Origin: Streptomyces sp. NBC_00162
GTDB lineage: Bacteria; Actinomycetota; Actinomycetes; Streptomycetales; Streptomycetaceae
Length of the DNA: 64,000 bases
Assembly: GCF_024611995.1 (NCBI RefSeq)
Contig: NZ_CP102509.1
Location: 1,116,001-1,180,000, forward strand
Direction: 5' to 3'
Shown here: in pieces, positions 37,230 through 51,279 of the stretch
Position numbering within the stretch: position 1 is the stretch's first letter
How the letters are laid out: each line of letters opens with the position of its first letter
Made by a program: the position numbers and the translations under genes
Notes under the pieces: model-generated
Seen by the model: the letters and a program-made list of their open reading frames with translations, nothing else
What the model was told of the DNA's origin: nothing
The model's database searches: none

Positions 37230-37245
37230 GTCGCGGCGCGCGCGT

Positions 37246-38731
<1,486 letters not shown>

Positions 38732-38811
38732 CCGTGGGCCGTTCGGGGGGCCGCCCGGTGTGTGAGGGCCCGCCTTCGCGCCGATCGGCGCGGGCGGTGG
38801 CAGGAAGGGGC

Positions 38812-39609
38812 ATGAGCCTCCGTCGGCGCCAGGTCCTGGGCAGTGCGGCCGCGGCCGTCCTGGCTTCCGTTGGGGCGGCCGGCCGGGGCCCTGACTACGG
38901 CGCGCTCGCACGCGGGATCGACGGGCGGGTGGTGCTCCCGGGCGACCGGGAGTACCCCGAGGCCCGGCAGTTGTTCCAGCCCCGGTACGACTCGGTGGCC
39001 CCGGGCGCGGTCGCCTATCCCGCGCACGCCGATGATGTGGCCCTCTGCCTGGACTTCGCCCGCCGCGCGGCCGTGCCGCTGGTCGCCCGGGGCGGCGGGC
39101 ACGGCTACGCCGGGTGGTCGACCCGCACCGACGGGCTGGTCGTCGATGTCGGCGCCATGGCCGAGGTGGCGGTCGAGGGGGACGGCGTACGGATCGGCGC
39201 GGGGGCCAGGCTCGGGGACGTGAACGCGGCCCTCGCCGGGCGGGGGCTCGCCGTCCCGACCGGGCTGTGCCCCTCCGTCGGCATCGCCGGACTCACCCTC
39301 GGCGGCGGCCTGGGACTGGCCTCGCGGGCGTACGGCACCACCTCCGACCGGCTCACCGGCGCCCGGGTGGTCACCCCCGACGGGGCCGTCCGCGAGGTCT
39401 CCGCCGACCGGGACACGGAACTGTTCTGGGCCCTGCGGGGCGGCGGGGGCGGCAACTTCGGGGTGGTCACCGAGTTCCGGTTCCGCACCCACCCGGCGGG
39501 CGACTGCGCCTTCGCCGAACTCCACTGGCCCGACGGCGACTCGGAGGCGGTCCTGCGCGGCTGGCAGCGCTGGCTGGCCACGCTGCCCGACCCGTTTATC
39601 CCCGCATAG
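38812..39609 (+). pseudogene. Secreted BBE-type FAD oxidase, N-terminal half, interrupted by mobile element
   Basis: Start ATG 38812 with AGGAAGGGG upstream. A twin-arginine signal (MSLRRRQVLGSAAAAVLASV) is followed by a FAD_binding_4 domain: VARGGGHGYAGWSTRTDGLV with the His for 8-alpha FAD linkage, and GLCPSVGIAGLTLGGGLGLA with the Cys used for bicovalent flavin in berberine-bridge enzymes. The native frame ends at LPDPF (39596); the last residues to the stop at 39609 come from the inserted element. The missing half is at 50553-51279. Joined, the two give 1512 bp, 504 codons. Confidence 0.93.
39590..39596. other. Left attachment core (ACCCGTT) of the mobile element
   Basis: ACCCGTT at 39590-39596 is the last host sequence before the element. 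The same 7 bp occurs at 50546-50552, where host homology resumes. Joining at the core restores the oxidase frame: GAC CCG TT|C TGG. Confidence 0.85.
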
Positions 39610-39635
39610 GTCGTGTCCCCCGCAGGTCATGTCCC
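39608..39635. repeat. Direct repeat AGGTCRTGTCCC x2 at left end of element
   Basis: AGGTCGTGTCCC (39608-39619) and AGGTCATGTCCC (39624-39635), 16 bp apart and 11 bp inside the left junction. Their position at the end of the element suggests recombinase-binding sites. No copy was found at the right end. Confidence 0.5.
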
Positions 39636-40046
39636 AAAGCGTCCCCGCCGTCGGCCGTGACTACGTCCCGTATCGCCTGGGCCCCGGTGTCGCATTCGGG
39701 GCGGCGGAGACCACAGTCGGCCGTGAGGACCTTCGGACAGCAGTTAACTGTAGCCATGATTCCGCTTGTTGGCCGAGTGGATGGCGACGCGAGACGCCTT
39801 CAAATTAAGGCAGGACCCGGGGACGCATGCGTCGAGAGCCCGGAAAGATGCCGTCCAGCCGCATCCCCACGCCACTCCAGGAAGTGCCTGGTCTGGGGGG
39901 TAGTCCAAGGGCGGCGGCACCATTCCCCACCCCGAACTGGCGGTCCCTGCCCGTCCTGCTGACCGCGCTGCCACCACGCAGGCCCCGCCCGTCCATGTGA
40001 CGTGCGGGGCCTGCTTGTTACAGGCATTCAGGCCCTACCAGGGGTG
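39636..40046. other. Non-coding left-end region of the element
   Basis: No credible gene: the open frames here are short, overlap in several frames and have odd composition. It contains a GTTAAC-containing AT-rich patch (about 39730-39740), a 12-bp perfect palindrome GACGCATGCGTC (39822-39833) next to a GCCTT/AAGGC hairpin, and the strong hairpin listed separately. It could hold recombinase sites or a small RNA. Confidence 0.5.
39978..40014 (+). terminator. Strong hairpin, terminator-like
   Basis: An exact 11-bp stem, GCAGGCCCCGC (39978-39988) with GCGGGGCCTGC (40004-40014), 15-nt loop, followed by TTGTTA. It lies upstream of the iterons and DUF6551 gene, so it would insulate them from read-through out of the disrupted oxidase gene. 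Confidence 0.6.
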
Positions 40047-40109
40047 ATGCGAGAAATCGCCGGGTGCGAGGAATCCCGAGATGCGAGACTGTTTGACATG
40101 CGAGAAATC
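40047..40109 (+). repeat. Four iterons (ATGCGAGAAATC) with exact 17-bp spacing
   Basis: Copies begin at 40047, 40064, 40081 and 40098: ATGCGAGAAATC, GTGCGAGGAATC, ATGCGAGACT (degenerate) and ATGCGAGAAATC. The period is exactly 17 bp. They end 51 bp before the DUF6551 ParB-like start. A TTGACA hexamer overlaps the last copy (40093-40098). This looks like a protein-binding array (operator, parS-like or accessory recombination site). Confidence 0.75.
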
Positions 40110-40159
40110 TCTACGGTTGACTGTCCGTCAATCGACACCCGATGAAGGGAGTTCTCACT

Positions 40160-41062
40160 GTGGTGACGAAGACCGCCCCGGCGAAGAAGGCCGTGGGCAA
40201 GCAGCGCGGCAAGGACGAGCCGCAGTACGAACCGGTGCCGGTGGACCCCCGGTCCGTCTTCCACCAGAAGATCCCGGTGGGTCTACTGGAGGTCGACCCC
40301 AGCCTGGACGCGCAGCGCATGTTCCAGCGCTCTTGGGCCAACAAGCTGGGGAAGAAGTGGAACCCCCGCCTGCTACTCCCCGCGATCGTCTCGAAGCGGG
40401 CGGACGGCCGGTATTACCTGCTGGACGGCCAGCACTCCACCCAGGTGGCCCTGGAGAAGCACGGCCCCGAATTCGAGCGGCACTGTCTGGTCTACGAGGA
40501 GCTGGCCGACGCCGAGGAAGCCGCACTGTTCCTCGCTGCCAACCGCGACCGCAAGGCCGTCAAGCCCGTGGACAACTACCGCGTGGCGCTGACCGCCGGG
40601 GAGCCGCTGGTGACCCGGGTTGACGCCGAGGTGGTGTCCTGCGGCCTGACCGTCACCGGCAGCTCCTCCCCCAACCAGGTGGGCGCCGTCCAGGCCGTCC
40701 TGCTCATCGGCGAGAAGCGCGTGGGGCTGCTCCCCAAGGTGCTGACTACCCTGGCCGAGGCGTGGGGACGGGACGCGACGTCCTGGGACAACATGATGAT
40801 CCGCGCGGTGGGGATGGTCATCCACACCAACTGGAAGAAGGAGGACGACGCGCCGAGGATCGACCTGGACCGCTTGGCCCTCGTGCTCCGCAAGCGCACC
40901 GTGCGCCAGTGGAAGACCGACGCCATCCGTTCCACGCAGTCCGGCGGTGGCTCCCAGTCCCGTTCCCAGCCCCTGGCCGAGAACGTCGTGACCGCCTACA
41001 ACATCGGCATCACGGAGCCCACCGAGCTGGTGATCGCTCCCGGCCGCGGCGCTGGCGCGTAG
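40160..41062 (+). CDS. DUF6551-like ParB/sulfiredoxin-fold protein
   Basis: About 300 aa from GTG 40160 (or GTG 40163); AAGGGAG lies 9 nt upstream. A lysine-rich N-terminus (VTKTAPAKKAVGKQRGKDE) leads to a ParB-N-like core: KIPVGLLEVDPSLDAQRMFQ, then YYLLDGQHSTQVALEKHG, with the GQH in the place of the ParB GxRR/NTPase motif, then EEAALFLAANRDRKAV. The C-terminal half is helical. It fits DUF6551 (ParB-like nuclease-type fold). It probably binds DNA, perhaps the upstream iterons; catalysis is not shown. Flanked by two similar hairpins, so it is a self-contained unit. Confidence 0.8.
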   Translation: MVTKTAPAKKAVGKQRGKDEPQYEPVPVDPRSVFHQKIPVGLLEVDPSLDAQRMFQRSWANKLGKKWNPRLLLPAIVSKRADGRYYLLDGQHSTQVALEKHGPEFERHCLVYEELADAEEAALFLAANRDRKAVKPVDNYRVALTAGEPLVTRVDAEVVSCGLTVTGSSSPNQVGAVQAVLLIGEKRVGLLPKVLTTLAEAWGRDATSWDNMMIRAVGMVIHTNWKKEDDAPRIDLDRLALVLRKRTVRQWKTDAIRSTQSGGGSQSRSQPLAENVVTAYNIGITEPTELVIAPGRGAGA

Positions 41063-41077
41063 CCACCCCGTAAGGCC

Positions 41078-41118
41078 GGCAGGCCCCCACCCCGATGAAG
41101 GCGGGGTGGGGGCCTGCC
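41078..41118 (+). terminator. 17-bp-stem terminator after DUF6551 gene
   Basis: GGCAGGCCCCCACCCCG (41078-41094) pairs exactly with CGGGGTGGGGGCCTGCC (41102-41118) around a 7-nt loop, 15 bp after the DUF6551 stop. No T tract follows, as is common in Streptomyces. Confidence 0.8.
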
Positions 41119-41299
41119 ACATGCTGGACCATACCGGCCGCCCCGCACCGAGGCACCCGCCACAGTGCGGGTCGCCTGCATACAGAGGTGTAGACCAGCC
41201 CGCCGTCTTCATGCCGGGCTTCCAGCCCGGCCGCGTCGGTTCGTATTTACTCCGTGCTCATCGCTCCATCATGCCGCGGAAGGGAAGAATGCCCCGGGC

Positions 41300-42637
41300 T
41301 CACGCCTCGCCCAGCAGGCCGGCGGCCCGGCCGTCCAGCTCGGCGACACCGGGCGCCTTGCCGTACCGGGACAGGCGGACGCGAATGTCCGTCAGGGAGT
41401 CGGTGATCTTGACGGACTGGACGCCTTCGGCGCACTCGATGAACTCGGACCAGGCGGCCAGGGCGCCGTCCAGGTCGCCCTGGCGAAGGTCGACGTCCCC
41501 AAGGTCGCCGAGGACGATCGCGCGGGACCGGCGGCGGTCCAGGCCGTGGACGTCGAGTGCGTGCTGGAGATGCTCGCGGGCGCCGTCCAGGTCGCCGAGG
41601 CGGGCGAGGATCATCCCGGCGTGGTGGGCCCACCGGCCGGTGGAGAAGTGGGAGGCCCAGGACTCCCCGGGGGCGGCGGTGGCCTTCTCGATGGCGTGCT
41701 GGGACCGGGCGAGGGCGGTCCGGGCCAGGCGCTGGTCGCCGTCCAGGGCGGCGGCGTCGGCGAGGGTGGTTTGGTAGTAGGCGACGGCCTTCGGTTCGTC
41801 CAGGTGGTCGACGTAATCCACGCACCGCTCGGACAGCCGCAGTGCGACGGCCCGGCCGCGCGGGCCGAGGTCAATCGCCTGGGTGGCCATCCCGCGGAGG
41901 GCAGTGGCGGCCAGCTCGGCGGCGCCGGCTTCCTCGGCGAGGGCGAAGGCGTGGGCGTAGTAGCGCTGTGCGAGTCCCTGGTGGTGGTCGTCACCGCCTT
42001 CGTCCTGGGCCATCCATCCGCACAAGTGGACCAGCTCGGACGTGGCGGCGTACAGGTCCCGGCCGGTGGCTTCGGCGTAACGCCCCTCCAGCCACGGTCC
42101 GACGCTGGTGGTCAGGTACTGGACGGCCAGCTGGCGAACGTGGGCGCCACCGTACTCGGCGGCGGCGTCGCCAAAGGTGCGGGTCATGGTCCGGATCGCG
42201 GCGACTTCGCCAGCCCCGACCCGCACGGACCCGGCCGGCGCGGTGGACACGCGGCGGGTGACGGCCTCGGCGTCTGGGAGCCCCAGCGCCGACAAGCCGA
42301 ACGCGGCCGTGGCCGCCAGCACCGTTCGACGTTCCACGTCACTCCTCCCGAGGGCCAGGACTCCCGCCACCGTATCCGCCGATCCTGGTCGGGGATCACC
42401 CAAATTGACAACCGCAGGACCGTTCAGGTCCAGCTGTAAGACCCGGACGACGAAGGGAAGCCAGACGTCCGGCGACGGCTTCCGCTCGCCCGTCATCCAC
42501 CGGCGTGCGTACTGCCGTTCCAGGCCGTCGGGGCCCCGACCTGCGGCCAGGGAGACCTCGCGAGCCAGCTTCGTGGGACCCCACCCGCGTTCTTCGCACG
42601 CTGCCCGGATTCGGTCCGTGATCGTCGCCGCCTGCAC
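41300..42637 (-). CDS. XRE-type HTH regulator with TPR-like C-terminus (element cargo)
   Basis: A 445-aa regulator. The N-terminal HTH is degenerate but readable (ITDRIRAACEERGWGPTKLA, then YARRWMTGERKPSPDVW, about 5-60). A possible Ala/Leu stretch follows (RTVLAATAAFGLSALGLPDA), then helical TPR-like repeats (FALAEEAGAAELAATALRGM, GMILARLGDLDGAREHLQHA, DLGDVDLRQGDLDGALAAW). Related proteins in Streptomyces act as development or antibiotic regulators. It is divergent from the LysRS-like/ASCH operon and faces three 10-bp-phased CCTACA repeats, so it probably controls the cargo operon and itself. Confidence 0.85.
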   Translation of the reverse strand: MQAATITDRIRAACEERGWGPTKLAREVSLAAGRGPDGLERQYARRWMTGERKPSPDVWLPFVVRVLQLDLNGPAVVNLGDPRPGSADTVAGVLALGRSDVERRTVLAATAAFGLSALGLPDAEAVTRRVSTAPAGSVRVGAGEVAAIRTMTRTFGDAAAEYGGAHVRQLAVQYLTTSVGPWLEGRYAEATGRDLYAATSELVHLCGWMAQDEGGDDHHQGLAQRYYAHAFALAEEAGAAELAATALRGMATQAIDLGPRGRAVALRLSERCVDYVDHLDEPKAVAYYQTTLADAAALDGDQRLARTALARSQHAIEKATAAPGESWASHFSTGRWAHHAGMILARLGDLDGAREHLQHALDVHGLDRRRSRAIVLGDLGDVDLRQGDLDGALAAWSEFIECAEGVQSVKITDSLTDIRVRLSRYGKAPGVAELDGRAAGLLGEA

Positions 42638-42650
42638 CGCGTCCCCCTGA

Positions 42651-42676
42651 CCTACACGGGCCTACAGAGACCTACA
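42651..42676. repeat. CCTACA x3, 10-bp-phased operator
   Basis: CCTACA begins at 42651, 42661 and 42671: a perfect 10-bp helical period, one face of the DNA. It sits 14 bp upstream of the XRE/TPR start and upstream of the divergent cargo operon; a related GGCTACAG follows near 42690 and a TTGACT hexamer near 42710. A cooperative binding site is likely. Confidence 0.6.
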
Positions 42677-42799
42677 GGATGGCCCCTCTTCCCGGGCGGC
42701 TACAGCCCGTTGACTGAACATCACCCCCACCAAGGGCTTGCCTGGTCCGCGTCCGTGGACTCGAGCGAGGGCCAGCCGAGAACACCCAGGGAGGACGAC

Positions 42800-42943
42800 A
42801 TGAGCCCCGACCCCCACCAGTTGCCCGCCGAGGAAAGCACCGGCGACAGCCCCGAGCCCAGCCCTGAACTACAGGCCCGCGCTGAGCGCGGCATGGACCG
42901 CTTCCTGACGTCCTGGGAGGCGGACGCCGAGGAACCCCGGTGA
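42800..42943 (+). CDS. Small acidic protein, first gene of cargo operon
   Basis: A 47-aa protein: MSPDPHQLPAEESTGDSPEP, then SPELQARAERGMDRFLTSWE, then ADAEEPR. AGGGAGGA with 4-nt spacing gives a strong ribosome site, which supports it as real. Mostly disordered and acidic with one amphipathic helix. 73 bp upstream of the LysRS-like gene. Function unknown; possibly a leader or partner peptide. Confidence 0.65.
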   Translation: MSPDPHQLPAEESTGDSPEPSPELQARAERGMDRFLTSWEADAEEPR

Positions 42944-43016
42944 CCGTGGCCCCTCATCGGTCGGCCACTGACGAACGCAACCGTGAGACAACCCCCGACG
43001 AACTGGAGACAGCCTG

Positions 43017-44120
43017 ATGGATCTCGTCGTGTCCTCCCCGAACAGCGTTCTGGCGAACGCCCTGGGCCAGGTCGAAGACGTACTGACCCCACACCTGCGG
43101 GCCGCGCACCCGAAGCGTGTGGAACTGTGCGTGGGGACGCAGATCAACGGCGTCCCCCACATCGGGACGTCCATGGTCCAGGCTCTGACGTTCGCCCTGG
43201 CGGCCCGATTGCGGGACCGGCACCAGATCCGCGTCCAGGTCGCCTTCACGGCCCTGGACAACGCGCCCCACGAAACCGTCCAGGACCCGGCCTCGGGGCA
43301 CGTCTACCAGCGGGCCTTGGCGCACGCCTTCGACCCGGCCACCGTCGGCCAGCAGATCGATTCCCTGTACCGGCCGCTGTTCGATGCCTTGTCGTCCCGG
43401 GCCGCGGTCTCGTACCGGCTGGAGACCTACACCCAGCAGCAGGCCGGCCCTGGGTTTCGGATGACGTGGTTGCGGCTGCTGCCGCGGCTGGAGGCGGCCC
43501 GTTGGTGGCTGGCGCCCCCGAGCGGGAACCCGCACCTGCGGGTGCCATGCCCGACTGCCGGGTGCGGGTGGGCAGAGAAGCGCGCGGAGCGGACGACCGC
43601 CCGGCCTGGCCCGGACCAGACGGCGGCCGTCGCGGCGGTCTGCCTCCAGCACGGCCCGTACGAAGTGGTCGTCAGCCCGGACGGTGGCGGCTACCTGGAC
43701 CTGTCCACCCTGTACCGCAACGTCGTCAAGGAGCTGGCCGTTCAGCTCACCCCGGACACCCTCACCGTCATGGTCAAGGGCGCCGACTGGATGCCCGGAA
43801 CGCTGCTGGTCAATGGGGCCTTGACCGCCGCCGGCCTGACCCCGGGGCAGATCCCGGCCCGCATCTTCTGCCCGCAGATCGTCACCGCCACCGGCGCGAA
43901 GCTGTCCAAGTCGCTCATCCGGGAGGGCCGGGCGGAGCCGATGGACCTCGGGGACGAATGGATGCTCGATACGCGGAAGTGGCCCGGTAGTCCCGACTCC
44001 TACGCCGCCCGGCTGCTGGAAACCGCTACGGTTCTTCTCTCGCATCCCCGCCATTTCTTCCGGGACTACTCCGCTCAGGAGATCGCCCGGCTCATGGAGA
44101 CCAGGAGCGTCCACGTCTGA
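43017..44120 (+). CDS. Class-I lysyl-tRNA-synthetase-like protein, catalytic core only
   Basis: A 367-aa protein with both signatures of class I aminoacyl-tRNA synthetases: a HIGH-type motif (NGVPHIGTSMV, about 44-54) and a KMSKS-type motif (TGAKLSKSLI, about 294-303). Between them are a zinc-ribbon-like CPTAGC segment and the VMVKGADWMPGTLLVNGALT strand-helix, whose order resembles archaeal-type class I LysRS. The helical anticodon-binding domain of LysRS (full length about 520 aa) is missing. Thus it probably activates an amino acid or transfers it to something other than normal tRNA; alternatively it is an antibiotic-resistant or RNA-modifying paralogue. The stop overlaps the ASCH start (TGATG). 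Confidence 0.75.
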   Translation: MDLVVSSPNSVLANALGQVEDVLTPHLRAAHPKRVELCVGTQINGVPHIGTSMVQALTFALAARLRDRHQIRVQVAFTALDNAPHETVQDPASGHVYQRALAHAFDPATVGQQIDSLYRPLFDALSSRAAVSYRLETYTQQQAGPGFRMTWLRLLPRLEAARWWLAPPSGNPHLRVPCPTAGCGWAEKRAERTTARPGPDQTAAVAAVCLQHGPYEVVVSPDGGGYLDLSTLYRNVVKELAVQLTPDTLTVMVKGADWMPGTLLVNGALTAAGLTPGQIPARIFCPQIVTATGAKLSKSLIREGRAEPMDLGDEWMLDTRKWPGSPDSYAARLLETATVLLSHPRHFFRDYSAQEIARLMETRSVHV

Positions 44121-44485
44121 TGAGCGACACCCCCGCCACCACCCTGTACGAACTGAACCTGTTCCAGCGCTATTTCGACCTTGTGGCCAGCGGCCGCAAG
44201 ACGATCGAAGTCCGGGTGAAGTACCCGAAGCTGGAGGGGCTGGAGGCGGGGGACCTCATCCGGTTCCGGGTCAAGGACACCGACCAGGCGTGTCTGGTCC
44301 GCGTGCTCCGGGTCGCGGAATATGCCTCCTTCGCGGACCTCCTGGACGGTGAGGGACCGGCACGAGTCAACCCGGCCAGTACCAGGGAGGAACAGCTGAC
44401 GAACATCCGGGCCATCTACGGGCTCGAGAAGGAGTCCCTGGGCGCCCTGGCCATCGAGATTCAGCTGACGGCCCCGGACGCCTGA
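44120..44485 (+). CDS. ASCH-domain protein
   Basis: A 121-aa PUA-like ASCH protein: LNLFQRYFDLVASGRKTIEV, then RVKYPKLEGLEAGDLIRFRV. The G-x-K-T-x-E/V core (SGRKTIEVRVKYPK) with lysine and acidic residues matches the ASCH nucleotide/RNA-binding site; some members hydrolyse N4-acylcytidines. The start overlaps the LysRS-like stop, so the two are translationally coupled and probably act together on an RNA or nucleoside. Followed by a bidirectional terminator. Confidence 0.85.
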   Translation: MSDTPATTLYELNLFQRYFDLVASGRKTIEVRVKYPKLEGLEAGDLIRFRVKDTDQACLVRVLRVAEYASFADLLDGEGPARVNPASTREEQLTNIRAIYGLEKESLGALAIEIQLTAPDA

Positions 44486-44517
44486 CCCTTCCCACTAACC
44501 CCCGCATCCCACGTACG

Positions 44518-44543
44518 AAGGCCCCCATGGCGTTGGGGGCCTT
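44518..44543. terminator. Bidirectional terminator between cargo operon and recombinase operon
   Basis: AAGGCCCCC (44518-44526) and GGGGGCCTT (44535-44543) form a 9-bp stem with an 8-nt loop followed by T residues. It lies 33 bp after the ASCH stop and 35 bp from the convergent TnpC-like stop, serving both. Confidence 0.75.
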
Positions 44544-44577
44544 TCCGTATGCCTGGGAAAGCCCTTCCGGCGTATGA

Positions 44578-45060
44578 CTACCCGGGTCCAGATCGGCCTC
44601 CCAGCGGCAGCGTGCGGACGTTCCCGGCGCCGTCCAGGGCCTTCCGTAGCCGCTGGATCTCGGCGTGCTGGGCGGCCAGCTGCGACACGGCGCGCGTCCG
44701 GAACTCGGTCAGCTCGGCGATGGTGTCGTTCCGCTGGGCGACCCGCGTACGCAAGTCGGACACCTCCCCCTTCAACCGGCTGATCTGGGCGTCCCGGGGG
44801 TCGGTGATCTCCCCGGCCTCTTGCTTGGCCCTCACACGCCGCTCGAACTCCTCGGCGAGGTGCTGGTAGGGGCCGGGCCGCTCCTTCCCGGCCCGGTCCT
44901 TCTTCGGGTAGAACCCGGTCCGGGACACGCCGGCCTCGGCGGCCAGGGTCTTCAGGTCGCACCGGCCGCCGGGCCGGAGTTCACCGCGCAGCAGGCGATC
45001 CATGGCGGCCCGGATCGCCTGTTCGTTGTGCTGCTTCATCTCTTCGCTGATCCGTGCCAT
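44578..45060 (-). CDS. TnpC-like coiled-coil accessory protein (DUF6262-like)
   Basis: A 160-aa protein in the last place of the recombinase operon. The N-terminus contains a HTH (CDLKTLAAEAGVSRTGFYPK, about 36-55). The C-terminal half is a long coiled coil (AQISRLKGEVSDLRTRVAQR, then FRTRAVSQLAAQHAEIQRLR). In Tn554 the small TnpC sets orientation and efficiency of transposition; the same position and size suggest the same role. ATGA overlap with the gene upstream. Confidence 0.75.
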   Translation of the reverse strand: MARISEEMKQHNEQAIRAAMDRLLRGELRPGGRCDLKTLAAEAGVSRTGFYPKKDRAGKERPGPYQHLAEEFERRVRAKQEAGEITDPRDAQISRLKGEVSDLRTRVAQRNDTIAELTEFRTRAVSQLAAQHAEIQRLRKALDGAGNVRTLPLGGRSGPG

Positions 45061-47258
45061 CACTGCCCCTTCGCCGTGCCGGTGCCGGCAGCGGCATCGA
45101 TCTCTTCCAGGACCCGGACGGTGCGGTCCAGGTCGGCGCGTACGCGGTCCCGCGCGTCCTTGTGGGCGCGCGGGATGCTGCCCAGGAAGACCTTCGTCTT
45201 CTGGGCGTTGTCCGCCCACACCGGCCTGTGACAGGGGTGGTAGGTGGCCTGCGGGCATCGGGAGGAGTCGCACAGCCCCGCCATGGGCTTGGAGTCGGCG
45301 GTGATCTCGGTGCCTGCGATCTTCAGGCAGAGCGCTTTGTGGGGATCCTTGAACCAGCAGTAGTTTGCCGTGCCGACGTGGAGGTACTGGGCTTGGTGCC
45401 GCAGCAGGTTGACCAGCTGGCGGTCCGAGTCCATCGTCTTCGGCTCCCCCGCCGAATGGTCCTTCAGTGCGGCGTCCACGTGCGTGAACGTGGCGATGAC
45501 GTCGCGGGCGCCGGGGCCGGACGGCATGATCCCGGCCTGGAAGTCCCGGAACGCGGCCGCGGTCAGCTCCATGTGGTGCTCGGTCTCTTGCTCCCCGACC
45601 TCGGCGAGGAAGATCCCCTGGGCGCCGCCGGGCCGGTGGGCGTAGCCCTCGGTCGTGGCTACCTGCACGTGTTTGAGATGGATCTTCGCGGCGATCATCC
45701 CACCGGGCCGGTAGGCCAGGGCCATGGACAGGGTTCGGCGGAGCATCCGCGCGTTGACCGGTCCGTCCGGAATTGGGGTAAGGCCGAGGCGGGCGCCTTC
45801 GGGACCGTTCACCCAGTCCCGAAAGTTCCGGTAGGCCAGCGACGTGTTGAGGGTCTTCATACCGAACACGGCGCCGTGCAGTGCACCGCTTCGGCGGGCG
45901 ATTTGGGCCCCGAGCGCTACGGCCTTCCAGGCTTCTTCGATCACCACCCATTCTTCTGGTAGGCCGCCGAACTCCTGCCCCTTGATCACCCGGGATGCGA
46001 GCCGGTAACGCATGGCCCCGCTACATGCAGGGGTGGGCGGAAGGCAGGAGTCTTCGGTGAGTTCGGCCAGTTCACTGGCCTTCATCCCGCTCACGGTGGA
46101 CGTGATCAACATGCAGGCGTGCTGCACGACGCGGCCGAGGTGCCGCAGCTGGTCATGGTCAAGGGGAAGCATGCACGGCACCGTGCCGGCCTTGTCGGCG
46201 CGCTGAACCATGGCCGCCTGGCGGCCGATGATGTCCTGTACGCCGACCTTGGCCACGGCGTCTTCAAGGAGTGGGCGGAAGAAGGCCCGCTGCTCCTCAT
46301 TCATCACCCGCTGGTTGGCGCCCTCGCGGATCAGATGGTCCAGGTGCACTTCCAACAAAGGGTCTGACGGCGACCAGCCGTTCGCCGACACACGGCGTGC
46401 GGAGTCCTTACGGGCCATGCGAGGGAGCGGAACGTCATCGCGTACGTAGTTCCCGATGTGGGCGGAGAACCGGTACTTCTCCTGGTCAGTCAGGTTATGA
46501 CCTTGGATCATGGTGGGCTTGGCCGCCATGCGGGCGTCGTTCCGTTCGATCTCTTCGGCCACGTGCGGGCCGATCGTCTCGACTATCCAGAGCGCGGCGG
46601 ACAACAGCGGCTGGAGCACATGGTCCGGCACCGGGACGACCTTGTTCCCCTGACTCGGTTTCCAGCCGGTGACGTCAGCCGCCGTGCGGCCGCCCCAGGG
46701 CTGGAAAGCTGGAGCGTAGGCATCGTGGGTGAACAGCTCTCGGTACATGGCCAGGTACTGGACGGGGACGATGTGGTTGATGACGGTTGCCGGAGACCGG
46801 TTCCCGTCACCTCTCACACGGGGTGTGACCAATGCCAGGTAGCGGTCGCAGTGCTCTTGCCCCACATCGGTGAGGGTGCGGACGCCGTCGGCGGACAGCC
46901 AGTTCAACCAGCTGGCCAGGTGCTGGACCGTGTCGTACATGCCGCTTATCGCCTTCGGCGTGCGGAAGGCGTCCGGCAGCACGGCCACCCGTTCATCGGT
47001 CGGGGCGAGAAGCGACAGGACCAGCTCTTTCGCCACGACCCGCCACACCGGATCCACGATGATGGAGAAGTCCCAGCGCAGCCGGAACCGGGCCAGGTAC
47101 TTCGGGGCACCGGCCAGTCCCGACAAGTCCCACAGGTCATCATCGAACCGTGCCCCCGGCGCCTCAGGCTTCAGCTCCAGCCCTGCCACCTGGCAGACTT
47201 CCAGGCCCGCGAACAGTGACCGGCTGGCATGCACCATGTGGTTCTTCGGGGCCGTCAT
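45060..47258 (-). CDS. Tyrosine-recombinase-like transposase (TnpB-like)
   Basis: A 732-aa protein. A core-binding-like region (MYDTVQHLASWLNWLSADGV) is followed by a C-terminal catalytic-like block: ARMLRRTLSMALAYRPGG, then IHLKHVQVATTEGYAHRPGG, where R-x-x-R, KH and the final Tyr occupy the RHR-Y positions. After it comes a cysteine-rich tail (ANYCWFKDPHKALCLKIAGT, LCDSSRCPQATYHPCH) that could bind zinc, as in other large Tn554 TnpB relatives. ATGA overlap with both neighbours. Confidence 0.82.
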   Translation of the reverse strand: MTAPKNHMVHASRSLFAGLEVCQVAGLELKPEAPGARFDDDLWDLSGLAGAPKYLARFRLRWDFSIIVDPVWRVVAKELVLSLLAPTDERVAVLPDAFRTPKAISGMYDTVQHLASWLNWLSADGVRTLTDVGQEHCDRYLALVTPRVRGDGNRSPATVINHIVPVQYLAMYRELFTHDAYAPAFQPWGGRTAADVTGWKPSQGNKVVPVPDHVLQPLLSAALWIVETIGPHVAEEIERNDARMAAKPTMIQGHNLTDQEKYRFSAHIGNYVRDDVPLPRMARKDSARRVSANGWSPSDPLLEVHLDHLIREGANQRVMNEEQRAFFRPLLEDAVAKVGVQDIIGRQAAMVQRADKAGTVPCMLPLDHDQLRHLGRVVQHACMLITSTVSGMKASELAELTEDSCLPPTPACSGAMRYRLASRVIKGQEFGGLPEEWVVIEEAWKAVALGAQIARRSGALHGAVFGMKTLNTSLAYRNFRDWVNGPEGARLGLTPIPDGPVNARMLRRTLSMALAYRPGGMIAAKIHLKHVQVATTEGYAHRPGGAQGIFLAEVGEQETEHHMELTAAAFRDFQAGIMPSGPGARDVIATFTHVDAALKDHSAGEPKTMDSDRQLVNLLRHQAQYLHVGTANYCWFKDPHKALCLKIAGTEITADSKPMAGLCDSSRCPQATYHPCHRPVWADNAQKTKVFLGSIPRAHKDARDRVRADLDRTVRVLEEIDAAAGTGTAKGQ

Positions 47259-49000
47259 ACGGTCATCTCCTCGGGGCGCACGGGTACCTCTTCGTCGGTG
47301 TCGGTCACGCTGGCCGCCGCCTGTTCCAGGACGGCGGCGGGGAAGGCGGGCAGGATGTCCCGGTCCAGCCGGTCGGCGTACGGACCGAACACGGCCACGA
47401 ACTGGGCCGTGGTCATCTGCCGGTACTGCCGCGCAAAGTAGGCGCGCAGGCGCAGCAGGTTCGGCGCGTGCCGGGGCATGAACACGGCCAGGGGGCACAG
47501 CAAGCACACCCACGGCCGGGCCGGGCAGGGCTTCCCGGCCGGGCCGTGAAGGCCGGCCAGCTGGTCCTTGCACGACGCGGTGAACACGTCGCGCTCCCCG
47601 CCCAGAAGCTCGGCCAGGGCGCCGTCGCTGACGCCGAGGTCGGCCGCCACCGCTGGGAGGTCGACCGCCGCGCGGGCCGCCGCGTCCAGGGTGAGCACGA
47701 CCGGCGGAAGGGCCCGCCGCAGGACGTCGGACTGACTCTCCTCAATGATCGTTTCGACCGCATCCATCTGGGCCGGGGTCTGCGCTGTCAGGTAGCGGTC
47801 GCCCTCCACGGCGGTCGTGTGGTTCGGGTCGATGGCCGTATTGCCTGTCCACCCCTTCCGGCTCAGGGTGTTCACGTAGGTCGTCCGGATCCGGGACATG
47901 TGGAGGAGCAACGGCTTCCCGGCGTCATCGACCAGCCCCAGCTGCGCGGCGAGCCCGCTCTTTTGAGCCGACTGGTTCACTTTGAATTTGGCCGGGCCGC
48001 TGATGGTGTACCCGGATGTTCGGCGCTCACGTCCGCTGGGTTGGCGGAGCCGTAGCCACAGTTCCTCGCGCACGTCCTCGTCGGCGTGCCTGCGAAGGAG
48101 GGCCGAGTGTTCCAGCCATCGCTCGATGAGCCGGACCGGGCGGCCGGTGAGGTTGACCGACTCGGGGCCGCGGCGGCCTTTGATGTAGTCCAGGAGTACG
48201 GAGGCGTCGCCGGACCACATCACGTCACCGAGGCCGAGTCCGGCGATTCCGTCGGGCACCACACCGGTGTAGACGCCGAGGAGCATCCGATACGCGGCGG
48301 CGATCTTGCCCGACGGGTACAGCGCATCTTGGATCTGAGCACGACCCACCAGTTCCACACTGAAGCGCGTACAGCCGACGCTCGCCGTGAGCGCTCGGGT
48401 GGACATCGGCCCGTACTCCATGAGTTCGTGGGCCACGTTCGCCGGGGTAACGCCCCCGACGCGGGGGTCTTGGCCCGCTTCTGCGGCCGCCACTGCGCGC
48501 TGATGGTCTGCCCAGCTCTGCCGTACAACCGACCGCAGGGCGTCGGTGATGCGCTGCCACTCGGCCTCGGTGTAGGGCTGGAGCGGCGTTGTTTTGGGTC
48601 GCACCTTGTTGGGGCGTCCGTTCAGGAAGCGGACTACGTCCGGCGCCAGGGTGCCGCTGGTCTGGTGCGCGGCGCGGAGCAGGGCCCGCGCCATGTCGGC
48701 GCGGTAGATGCTTGCGGCCAGCCAGTACCGCAGGAGGAGCGGGCGCGTCAGATCGGACATGCCACCGGTGAATCCTTCGTCGGCCAGCCAGCGGACCATT
48801 CTGCGTAGGCCGGTCGCGTACTGGGCGGCCGTGCCCCGGGCCGCGATCGTCCCGTGGGGGTGGACCAGCTCGGGGAACCCGGCGATCAGCTCAGCGACCA
48901 ACAGCTGGTTCGGCAGGGTGTCGAACGCGGTCACGTACCGGCTTCCGTCGGGGAAGACGAATTCGACGCGCAGGGGGTCGTGGTGGATGTGGGCGGGCAT
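47255..49000 (-). CDS. Tyrosine-recombinase-like protein, divergent catalytic site
   Basis: A 581-aa protein. An N-terminal SAM-like region (TAAQYATGLRRMVRWLADEG) is present. The catalytic part is only partly recognisable: LLLHMSRIRTTYVNTLSRKG, then NHTTAVEGDRYLTAQTPAQM, lacking a clear HxLRH and LGH motif. A Cys cluster occurs near the end (CPARPWVCLLCPLAVFMPRH). It may be a structural partner for the other two recombinases. The start at 49000 overlaps the first recombinase stop. No other function is indicated. Confidence 0.78.
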   Translation of the reverse strand: MPAHIHHDPLRVEFVFPDGSRYVTAFDTLPNQLLVAELIAGFPELVHPHGTIAARGTAAQYATGLRRMVRWLADEGFTGGMSDLTRPLLLRYWLAASIYRADMARALLRAAHQTSGTLAPDVVRFLNGRPNKVRPKTTPLQPYTEAEWQRITDALRSVVRQSWADHQRAVAAAEAGQDPRVGGVTPANVAHELMEYGPMSTRALTASVGCTRFSVELVGRAQIQDALYPSGKIAAAYRMLLGVYTGVVPDGIAGLGLGDVMWSGDASVLLDYIKGRRGPESVNLTGRPVRLIERWLEHSALLRRHADEDVREELWLRLRQPSGRERRTSGYTISGPAKFKVNQSAQKSGLAAQLGLVDDAGKPLLLHMSRIRTTYVNTLSRKGWTGNTAIDPNHTTAVEGDRYLTAQTPAQMDAVETIIEESQSDVLRRALPPVVLTLDAAARAAVDLPAVAADLGVSDGALAELLGGERDVFTASCKDQLAGLHGPAGKPCPARPWVCLLCPLAVFMPRHAPNLLRLRAYFARQYRQMTTAQFVAVFGPYADRLDRDILPAFPAAVLEQAAASVTDTDEEVPVRPEEMTV

Positions 49001-50442
49001 CAGATTTCGTCTCCGAACTCGGCGGCAGCTTCGACCTCGGCGTCGTCGTCGACGTGGCCGGCGCTGGTGTAGGCGTCGCGGTAGATCCGCTGGACGTCGA
49101 GGCGCCGCAGGTAGATTTCGGTCGTCGTGACGGAGGAGTGACCGAGGAGATCCCGAAGGATCATCAGCGGGTCCGTCTTGGTCAGGTAGAGGGCCAGGCC
49201 GGCGTCTCCGCCGGTGTCGGTGATCAGCGCGGCGGCGCGCTGGTAGTAGCCCTGGACCAGGGCTTCCAGGGTCTCCATGGCGAAGGTGTGACGCAGCATG
49301 TGGGCGTGCACGGTGGGGAACCGGGGCTCGAACCGGTCGCGGATGCGCTGGGATGTGCGCCGGAAGACGGTGTCCCAGTCCACGAACGGGGTCCCCGCGG
49401 ACTGCACGGCGACCAGCGGTGACGTGCCGTCCGGGTTGACCAGCCGCAGGCGCTCGGCAGGTCCGAGGAGCCGCCACGGCATCCGGGCTCCGTTGATCCG
49501 GCCGCCCTCCCAGTCGGCCTGCTCCACCATCAGCGGCGGCCCGAGGCGCGCCGGCGGTCGGTAGGGAGCCCGGGTGACGGCGGCGTGCCGGTCCAGCTCC
49601 ACGTACTGGTAGACATCGGCCAGCGCCCCATGGCTGGTCCAGGTGGCCCTGGCCTTGTTCCCCTTCGTCGTGGCCTCGGCGATCGGGAACCAGACCGGCA
49701 CGGGCGTCCGCCGCGCGGGCAGGGCGGGGAGCTCGTAGGTCAGCAGGTAGGTGAACTCCTGGGCGCGCAGTCCCGAGGCTACGGCGAGGCCGCCCATGGA
49801 GCCGTTGCGGGACAGCTCCCGCCCCCGGAAGGAGTCGTCGGGTGCTCCGTCCGGGTCGAGACCGGCGAGGGCCCGCAGGAAGAGGTCCCGGAATCCGGGC
49901 TCCAGGTATTTCATGGTCGCGTGCGGTTGAGCCCGGCGGACAGTCGCCGTGTTACGGCGGGTCTCCACCGGGCTTGAGTCTTTGGAGTACCGGGAGCCCA
50001 TGGCGTACGTGAACGGAACCTTCGAGCAGTGATCGTTGTCGACGGCCCACGTGTAGAAGCTGGACAGGACCGTGATCCGCTGGTTCCAGGTGGAGCCGTC
50101 CCAGCGCGCTTCAATGGGGCCGGCCAGCCGGTACTCGGCGAATGCTCCGAGCGCGGCACGCAGTTCCTCGCGTTCACCGAACGGGTGGACCGACCGGTCC
50201 GACAGGAACTCCAGCCAGCTGCGGACGGCCTGGGCGTACGACCTCCACGACTTCGCCGCCGGTACCCCGCTGATCGGAAGTTCCCTCAGCCACGCGTTCA
50301 CAGCGACAGTGGGGCGCGGTCCGTTCTCGTCCTCGAACCTCAGGTCGTCATCAACCAGAACCGGCATGTTCTCCCGGATCAGGGGTTCTCGTCCCAGGTC
50401 CCAGGACTCCCACCCGTCGCGGGTGAAGTAGGTCAGCAACAT
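49000..50442 (-). CDS. Tyrosine recombinase / integrase (TnpA-like)
   Basis: A 480-aa enzyme with all expected catalytic residues: the first Arg in ASGLRAQEFTYLLTYELP, then HAHMLRHTFAMETLEALVQG (HxLRH), LRDLLGHSSVTTTEIYLRRL (H of LGHSS and the Tyr nucleophile). The N-terminal half is a core-binding domain (KSWRSYAQAVRSWLEFLSDR, then LSSFYTWAVDNDHC). First gene of the recombinase operon, about 104 bp from the right junction, where its promoter must lie. Catalyses integration and excision at the ACCCGTT core by inference. Confidence 0.93.
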   Translation of the reverse strand: MLLTYFTRDGWESWDLGREPLIRENMPVLVDDDLRFEDENGPRPTVAVNAWLRELPISGVPAAKSWRSYAQAVRSWLEFLSDRSVHPFGEREELRAALGAFAEYRLAGPIEARWDGSTWNQRITVLSSFYTWAVDNDHCSKVPFTYAMGSRYSKDSSPVETRRNTATVRRAQPHATMKYLEPGFRDLFLRALAGLDPDGAPDDSFRGRELSRNGSMGGLAVASGLRAQEFTYLLTYELPALPARRTPVPVWFPIAEATTKGNKARATWTSHGALADVYQYVELDRHAAVTRAPYRPPARLGPPLMVEQADWEGGRINGARMPWRLLGPAERLRLVNPDGTSPLVAVQSAGTPFVDWDTVFRRTSQRIRDRFEPRFPTVHAHMLRHTFAMETLEALVQGYYQRAAALITDTGGDAGLALYLTKTDPLMILRDLLGHSSVTTTEIYLRRLDVQRIYRDAYTSAGHVDDDAEVEAAAEFGDEI

Positions 50443-50545
50443 GCCAACACTCTAGACAATGCAACACAGTTGGCGAGAATGGATAGAAGAACAGTTGCAC
50501 TCCCGCCTAGCCGTCTAATGCGACAGTGTCAGAGTGCAGGGATTA

Positions 50546-50552
50546 ACCCGTT
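50546..50552. other. Right attachment core (ACCCGTT)
   Basis: Second copy of the 7-bp core; host oxidase sequence resumes at 50553 (CTGGAGCCAGGTGGAG). Just inside, TGCAAC (50460-50465) and GTTGCA (50494-50499) form an inverted repeat that may bind a recombinase or regulate the recombinase promoter. Confidence 0.85.
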
Positions 50553-51279
50553 CTGGAGCCAGGTGGAGTTCGCGGTCGGGGCGGGATCCGCCGCGCAGCC
50601 CCCGGCGGTACGGGTGGTGTGCCTCGACGGGCGCCCCGAGCTGGACCGGCAGCTGACCCGGCTGTCGGATCTGGTCGGCCGGCCGGTGCGGGACAGCTGG
50701 AGCGTCGTACGGGGCTACGGGGACACCGTTCTGGCCCTGTCGGGCTGTCTGGAGCGCAGCGCGGAGCAGTGCCGGCTGCCGGGCACGCTGCCCGGCCGGG
50801 ACCCCCGCGGCCTGCTGGGCCGGGACTCGTACGCCGCGCGCTCCGACTTCTGGGCGGGCGCCGGGCTGCCGGACGGGGCGATCGGCGCGGTGTTGGCCGC
50901 CGTCCGGCGGTACGGGTCCGCGGTTCCTCCCGGCGGACGGGGGGTGGTGCAGTTCGACGGGGTCTGCGGGGGCGCCGTGAACCGGGTCGCGGCAGCCGAC
51001 ACCGCCTTCGTCCACCGCGACAGCGCCTTCCTCGCCCAGTACCTCGTCTACTGGCCGCAGTCCGCGACGGCCGCCGACGTGGCCCGGCACCAGGCCTGGC
51101 TCGACGGGCTCTGGCAGGACCTGCGCCCCTGGGCGAGCGGCCGGGCGTACCAGAACTACACCGATCCACGGCTCGTCGGCTGGCGCGAGGCCTACTACGG
51201 GCCGAACCTCTCCCGGCTGGAAGACGTCCGCCGCGCCTACGACCCCGACCGGATGTTCCGCTTTCCCCAGGCCCTCTAG
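50553..51279 (+). pseudogene. BBE-type FAD oxidase, C-terminal half
   Basis: Continues the gene broken at 39596: [20 protein letters not shown] onward. It holds the substrate domain and the berberine-bridge C-terminal motif [20 protein letters not shown], then [20 protein letters not shown]. Without its N-terminal FAD domain it cannot be functional. It ends 9 bp before the protease start, so the intact gene was once coupled to that gene. Confidence 0.93.

Follow-up and report, generated by a model that had tools for sequence, protein, structure and literature searches.

A four-gene tyrosine-recombinase element inserted in an oxidase gene of Streptomyces sp. NBC_00162, and its relatives

The DNA analyzed here is a stretch of 64,000 nucleotides from contig NZ_CP102509.1 of Streptomyces sp. 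NBC_00162 (positions 1,116,001 to 1,180,000; hereafter the window, whose numbering is used throughout), in which an element of 10,956 bp, counting one core, interrupts a gene encoding a berberine-bridge-type (BBE-type) FAD oxidase. We consider it highly probable that this element is a site-selective transposon of the tyrosine-recombinase type, with the four-gene layout of the strand-biased circularizing integrative elements (SEs; PMC10214605) and of the genomic islands with three integrases (GInts; PMC5385486), and that it belongs to an actinobacterial branch of this wider class. Comparison among relatives shows a module of three recombinase genes and a coiled-coil gene (recA-recB-recC-cc) with fixed ends and a 6-bp spacer between imperfect inverted ends, and it shows interchangeable cargo, placed after the cc stop codon and bounded on its other side by a short distal end.

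The interrupted gene and the recombination operon

A sequence-only reading of the window had described a Tn554-like element splitting a FAD oxidase gene with base-exact boundaries, and the insertion itself was borne out. The motif ACCCGTT is present at both junctions (39590-39596 and 50546-50552), and joining 38812-39596 (785 bp) to 50553-51279 (727 bp) gives 1512 bp of a single open frame encoding 503 aa. Frame restoration and Pfam identified the two parts of this gene, both on the plus strand: the N-terminal part (38812..39595) contains the FAD_binding_4 domain and the C-terminal part (50553..51279) the BBE domain. The seven-base repeat noted earlier was refined, from both ends of 14 Streptomyces elements, to a 6-bp core, ACCCGT; the seventh T is a chance match, since on the left the element itself starts with T and on the right the gene continues with T.

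A search with the joined 503-aa oxidase in 61 genomes returned 30 loci, including the left half from the window itself. The sole full-length orthologue above 70% identity among them was that of genome G012 (locus L051), where the gene is whole (74.6% identity over 503 aa) and carries GGACCCGTTCTGGAGCC at the site; the remaining 28 loci showed 33-52% identity, without the motif LPDPFWSQ. The gene is also whole in Streptomyces sp. NBC_00249 (L091; 75.3% identity), with GGACCCGTTCTGG at the site. GACCCGTTCTGG is common to both empty sites, and the downstream neighbor of the oxidase gene is, by DNA match, the same in these two genomes as in the window. The uninterrupted oxidase that the sequence-only reading expected in related genomes was therefore found, and on these comparisons the element is inserted precisely into an intact oxidase gene.

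The four genes of the recombination operon lie on the minus strand. The product of recA (49000..50442; 480 aa) is a tyrosine recombinase with the full R-K-H-R-H-Y set, while that of recB (47255..49000; 581 aa) is a degenerate tyrosine recombinase without the box-I Arg, which keeps Tyr403, has a Cys-rich C-terminus and shows no Pfam match. The large tyrosine recombinase RecC (45060..47258; 732 aa) carries Lys393 in place of the box-I Arg, and cc (44578..45060; 160 aa) encodes a coiled-coil protein in the position of GinD, Srap or TnpC. The genes recA, recB and recC overlap by 1-4 nt, with the coiled-coil gene after them; the earlier description of three overlapping tyrosine-recombinase-like genes plus a small coiled-coil gene holds. 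The recB gene was present in all 20 fetched loci. Its dN/dS (ratio of non-synonymous to synonymous divergence) is ~0.2, and its product lacks the box-I Arg in 21 of 21 aligned rows but keeps a Tyr. Nothing significant linked RecB by sequence to a known family or fold in Pfam, NCBIfam, PHROGs or a PDB profile search (best E 0.14), and its recombinase fold was found solely by predicted structure (pTM 0.54; residues 383-408 weak).

Ends, a probable second insertion at the same base and the 6-bp footprint

A scan of a species-level genome collection for close RecA relatives led to two loci. In Streptomyces sp. ISL-94, whose RecA is 96% identical to that of the window, one contig holds both recA and the left oxidase half. 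ACCCGTT again marks the two oxidase junctions, and the element between them, 13,364 bp long, has exactly the base position and the orientation seen in the window. The recombination operons share 97.1% identity over 5,860 bp, against 84-88% for the flanks. The synonymous divergence (dS) between the two strains was 0.079 for recA, 0.035 for recB (520 codons) and 0.047 for recC, against 0.27 and 0.33 for the oxidase halves and 0.38 for the next gene. Because the values of recA-C (0.035-0.079) are far below those of the flanks (0.27-0.38), two arrivals at the same oxidase site appear likelier than one inherited insertion. We regard as unlikely that a single insertion in the common ancestor of both strains was followed by cargo replacement: the shared base and orientation, the switch of cargo at the cc stop codon and the dS of cc, which resembles that of the flanks, would fit such a history, but vertical descent should have left equal values in recA-C and in the flanks, barring a later replacement of the module through recombination.

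The DNA similarity between the window and ISL-94 breaks off inside the cc stop codon, at 44579, and reappears solely in the far end (39596..39704), strongly over the first ~57 bp and then in a block around +100. At E 1e-3, the ISL-94 stretch contained no match to any of the four cargo proteins of the window. Because the dS of cc (0.29) is near the flank values and far above those of recA-C (0.035-0.079), the point of cargo exchange may lie between recC and cc.

Inside the window cores the element has inverted ends, TTATCCC...GGGATTA, and its terminal layout reads ACCCGT TTATCCCCGCAT ... TGCAGGGATTA ACCCGT. The recA-distal core (attR, 39590..39595) is the expected place of the brought-in 6 bp, and the recA-proximal core (attL, 50546..50551) the expected native target 6 bp. 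The recA-distal end (39596..39704) contains the terminal repeat TTATCCCCGCAT, GTGTCCC/ATGTCCC motifs near +18 and +34, and TGTCGCATT near +92; the recA-proximal end (50443..50545) contains the GGGATTA terminal repeat and the motifs TGTCGCAT and TGTTGCAT, and its G+C content is 50% vs 72% for the window. The 220 bp upstream of recA were compared in 27 loci, and both ends in 14 Streptomyces elements, which revealed a common plan: a 6-bp core, a ~12-bp inner repeat (TTATCNCYGC or a variant) and TGTCnCAT-like repeats further inside, with a GTGTC-type motif at ~+18 to +20 in most elements compared. The cores were identical at both ends in 10 of the 14 elements and differed by one base in four (L034, L041, L133 and L135). 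For the window element, ISL-94, L036 and L132-L135, the far end follows from gene restoration or from the divergence point of near-identical copies; in 12 of the 20 fetched loci the far end could not be set within the stretch examined, and L136-L141, among ten further loci fetched, were left out of the end analysis. Element sizes ranged from 6,273 bp (L132 and L133) to the 13,364 bp of ISL-94. The two smallest, both in genome G796, are free of cargo, as their four genes are followed by ~300 bp up to the far core. No similarity between target flanks and element ends was visible by eye.

The two copies of G796 differ by one mismatch in 6,283 bp, and this mismatch lies in a core: L132 has GCTGGG at both ends, and L133, which interrupts an N6-methyltransferase gene, has GCTGGG at the far end and TCTGGG beside recA. 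Homologues of the L133 target were found in 20 places, two of which are its own halves; of the other 18, ten have TCTGGG at the corresponding position and none GCTGGG. Because of this, the comparison shows that in G796 the 6 bp beside recA are native and the far 6 bp were brought in by the element. The three near-identical 6.9-kb copies of genome G054 (L134, L036 and L135) are consistent with this rule; all have CGCGCG at the far end, and beside recA they have CGCGCG, CGCGCG and CGAGCG, in every case inside the GYARVS motif of a different resolvase gene (assigned by Pfam for L135 only). In L034 and L041 the mismatched cores differ at a third codon position, by reading, and which end is native cannot be told, which is also the case for L135. 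Two alphaproteobacterial relatives that are 99.8% identical (L200 and L201) occupy two ArdC-like genes, so named by reading, of a single plasmid, pTK1 of Sphingobium sp. TKS; they have TTATC-type ends and GTCGCC at all four junctions, and so provide no test of the rule. A brought-in core at the far end has been reported for SEs and for Tn554 relatives (PMC10214605; PMC12486829), and the related two-copy genomes offer comparative evidence that the rule also applies in Streptomyces.

Our data suggest the following way of moving. RecA and RecC would join both ends by recombination, giving a circle in which the 6 bp adjacent to the recA end serve as spacer; by analogy with SEs, the circle junction of the window element would read GGGATTA-ACCCGT-TTATCCC. 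RecB, which keeps the fold and has lost the catalytic Arg, and the coiled-coil protein might act as structural or strand-choosing subunits. The circle would then recombine with a matching 6 bp in the target, whose own 6 bp would stay beside recA while the carried 6 bp would go to the far end. Plasmids would be the likely vehicle between cells, and the four cargo genes examined included none for transfer.

Kinship with known families and alternative readings

For the A, B and C sets (21 rows) and the cc set (20 rows), profiles were matched against 19 proteins from five distant operons, located on plasmids of the alphaproteobacteria Agrobacterium (A-C only) and Marinovum, of the gammaproteobacteria Klebsiella and Marinobacter, and of Mycobacteroides. 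Each recombinase profile matched its own counterpart (A-A 98.5-99.9%, B-B 92-99.7%, C-C 98.4-100%), with a best off-diagonal value of 11.6%, and the cc profile matched the fourth protein at 95, 88 and 87% in three of four operons, failing for Klebsiella (2%). The Marinobacter operon, which matched at 99% (A), 92% (B), 98% (C) and 88% (D), has an SE-like layout with a DUF6262 protein last; none of the five operons is known to be a published SE or GInt. The putative link to SEs and GInts consists of layout and of kinship among operons, and membership in either group is not proven. In the RecA tree the window groups with ISL-94 and L031 (94/100), and the outgroup branches are long.

SEs are described chiefly from Gammaproteobacteria, and the relationships among SE, GInt, RIT and Tn554 are called vague (PMC10214605). 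The window element shares with SEs the order of an ordinary recombinase (intA), a degenerate recombinase-like protein (tfp), a large recombinase (intB) and a small coiled coil (srap), as well as imperfect inverted ends with a 6-bp spacer; in its relatives, as in SEs, the 6 bp of the target were seen next to the first recombinase gene and the brought-in 6 bp at the far end. However, RecB keeps a Tyr at the nucleophile position and is therefore less degenerate than Tfp, described as lacking the catalytic motif (PMC10214605). GInts, reported from Proteobacteria, Bacteroidetes, Firmicutes and Verrucomicrobia, likewise have a four-gene operon (ginABCD) at one end, precise insertion, interchangeable cargo that begins at the stop codon of the fourth gene (44579 in the window) and a short, poorly conserved far end (PMC5385486). 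They differ in that the first Arg is reported to be missing from the third protein (GinC; PMC5385486), whereas in the window family it is missing from the second. Their borders are imperfect direct repeats of 10-17 nt; the window element shows a perfect 6-bp core (7 bp with the chance T), and it is a matter of definition whether longer imperfect repeats would count. RIT elements also contain three overlapping recombinase genes, but the archetype has proteins of 315-410 aa, 34-bp terminal inverted repeats and three genes only (PMC3414803, PMC10214605, PMC8138268); with proteins of 480, 581 and 732 aa, ends of ~12 bp and a fourth gene, the window element is not of this type. In the literature on Actinobacteria, as far as openly available text extends (subscription papers not covered), no description of a four-gene SE/GInt-type element in Streptomyces was found.

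The term Tn554-like from the sequence-only reading fits the putative way of moving, given the brought-in 6 bp at the far end in related elements, but not the gene content, since three recombinase-fold proteins are encoded and A, B and C align with SE/GInt-type operons. The target also differs: it is a BBE-type FAD oxidase gene, not att554, which lies in radC. Tn554 has two recombinases and TnpC (PMC10214605), and no counterpart of RecB; related elements with two recombinases, one long and one short, occur in Actinobacteria including Streptomyces (PMC3414803), and there are single mentions of Tn554-type elements in Mycobacterium and Paenarthrobacter (PMC4816395, PMC10494377). Tyrosine recombinases with a small accessory protein, a preference for target sites and a brought-in core at one end are features common to Tn554 and the window element (PMC3414803, PMC12486829, PMC10214605). 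It could thus be argued that the latter is a Tn554-family transposon in the strict sense, with the third recombinase as an unrelated passenger, a view that the coiled-coil gene at the end of the operon, the far-end position of the brought-in core, as in Tn554 relatives and SEs (PMC10214605, PMC12486829), and the actinobacterial long-and-short pairs (PMC3414803) would favor. We find it very improbable, as recB sits between recA and recC with overlaps of 1-4 nt, is present in the 20 fetched loci, has a counterpart in all five distant operons and shows the dN/dS of ~0.2 given above.

A degenerate, immobile relic, a reading compatible with a site-selective four-gene transposon as the kind of element, seems rather unlikely to us. 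Residue 393 of RecC (46080-46082), which is Arg in ISL-94 and in 19 of 20 aligned rows with that column, is Lys in the window, the only exception, and for this reason the window copy may be weakened or inactive. Against a relic, all four genes are open and of lengths as in relatives, and the ends are intact and match other copies.

Several other observations count, like this substitution, against the site-selective transposon reading that we prefer. In the draft contig of ISL-94, RecB carries a frameshift, and in genome G054 the copy L134 has a broken RecA. The 83% identical element of NBC_00249 lies elsewhere, at GATCGC in an AIM24 gene, with the oxidase site of that strain unoccupied; site choice is thus, on the sequences compared, not strict across relatives, and the oxidase site as a strict attachment site was dropped as an interpretation. 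For seven of the 14 elements (L031, L034, L037, L041, L042, L049 and L050) core identity was part of the score used to choose the far end. The native base was checked against homologues in G796 only, and in the window the footprint rule is not visible, because donor and target 6 bp are alike and both cores equal the empty site, so that it rests on relatives. The movement proposed above is inferred from comparison.

Distribution, cargo and significance

RecB relatives (E <= 1e-20) were found in 40 of 392 genomes of the genus, 28 of them near full length, eight as fragments (41-69% identity) and four distant (28-31%), and a RecB profile search of a phylum sample detected at least 4 of 396 genomes; three candidates per genome were scored in both searches, which makes the phylum count a lower bound. 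At least 767 RecB relatives are present in the protein collection, and among the 120 listed, which include Streptomyces, Kitasatospora, Amycolatopsis, Saccharothrix, Nocardia, Pseudonocardia and Actinoplanes, most named entries are called 'hypothetical protein'. RecA relatives (E <= 1e-3) occurred in 85 of 295 genomes, many being ordinary integrases at ~30% identity, and on 204 plasmid records, 68 of them predicted conjugative.

The oxidase site served as target at least twice, in the window and in ISL-94; different genes are used by other clades of the family. According to Pfam matches of the rejoined or flanking protein, the targets include a C5 methyltransferase at DLFAG (L034), a tyrosine integrase at LRHSF (L041), an N6 methyltransferase (L133), a resolvase (L135), AIM24 (L031) and a radical SAM protein at GGEP (L035, below the curated cut-off); the target of L132 had no Pfam match. 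In the RecA clade formed by L037, L038, L041 and L042 (100/100; genomes G192, G011, G022 and G056), the R-H codons of integrase box II are the target in four of four, a placement made once by Pfam and otherwise by reading the flanking codons, for L038 from the near flank only.

The cargo of the window element consists of four genes: one for a ParB-like/DUF6551 protein (40142..41062, plus strand, 306 aa; Pfam, PHROGs), one for an NsdA-family TPR regulator (41300..42637, minus strand, 445 aa; NF053720), one for a short class I aminoacyl-tRNA-synthetase-like (aaRS-like) protein with PHIGTS and KLSKS motifs (43017..44120, plus strand, 367 aa) and, paired with the latter, one for an ASCH-domain protein (44120..44485, plus strand, 121 aa; Pfam). 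Well-known members of Tn554 carry resistance genes; as the sequence-only reading had stated, none was found among the four cargo genes examined (Pfam, NCBIfam, PHROGs). These four also lacked conjugation or mobilization genes of integrative conjugative or mobilizable elements, smaller open reading frames not being searched, and PADLOC assigned no defense family to the eight element proteins. The NBC_00249 element carries an NsdA-like gene (30% identity), and the ISL-94 cargo (L081/L089), judged from translations, comprises a 674-aa protein, a helix-turn-helix regulator and a radical-SAM-like protein.

The model of the aaRS-like protein (mean pLDDT 80.2) was nearest to class I lysyl-tRNA synthetase 1irx (Foldseek E 1.3e-7, TM by query 0.51, rmsd 13.9). 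Its gene, with HIGH- and KMSKS-type motifs, occurs in 25 of 199 genomes of the genus, counting that of the window, and is adjoined by an ASCH gene in 23 of 26 distinct places. The pair is also found in Streptomyces phage Picard, beside a serine integrase, and on two plasmids. We take the two genes to be a travelling module, and a role in defense or lysogeny would be a guess from their neighbors.

Directly upstream of the oxidase gene, the argG slot (37240-38733) is variable. In G012 the block before argG matches the window, argG itself (37259-38731) was not found and the flanking blocks are 38 bp apart; in the ISL-94 stretch argG had no match, and ~2 kb of other DNA is present instead.

A recognizable family is thus present in ~7-10% of the Streptomyces genomes sampled (28 to 40 of 392), with several defined target genes. 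Together with a 6.3-kb form that lacks cargo and a footprint that can be read from sequenced genomes, this makes it a tractable model for the movement of three-recombinase elements and, if the footprint rule is general, the six far-end bases would name the last donor site. The actinobacterial family also offers intermediates that may link SE, GInt, RIT and Tn554, and a fixed recombination module with swapped cargo is worth recognizing in annotation. We tentatively propose, as a possibility that we do not yet favor, that SEs, GInts and the actinobacterial family are branches of one ancient, pan-bacterial superfamily of four-gene transposons, with Tn554 as a three-gene relative, which would move by a copied-out circle tagged with the 6 bp of the donor and whose clades would have specialized on codons for conserved motifs in other enzymes, in many cases those of mobile DNA; box II of integrases (H-x-x-R-H), the GYARVS motif of resolvases, motifs of methyltransferases and ArdC-like genes would be such targets. 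If this were true, the most conserved codons would represent a portable landing site spared by evolution, and insertion there would disable competing mobile elements.

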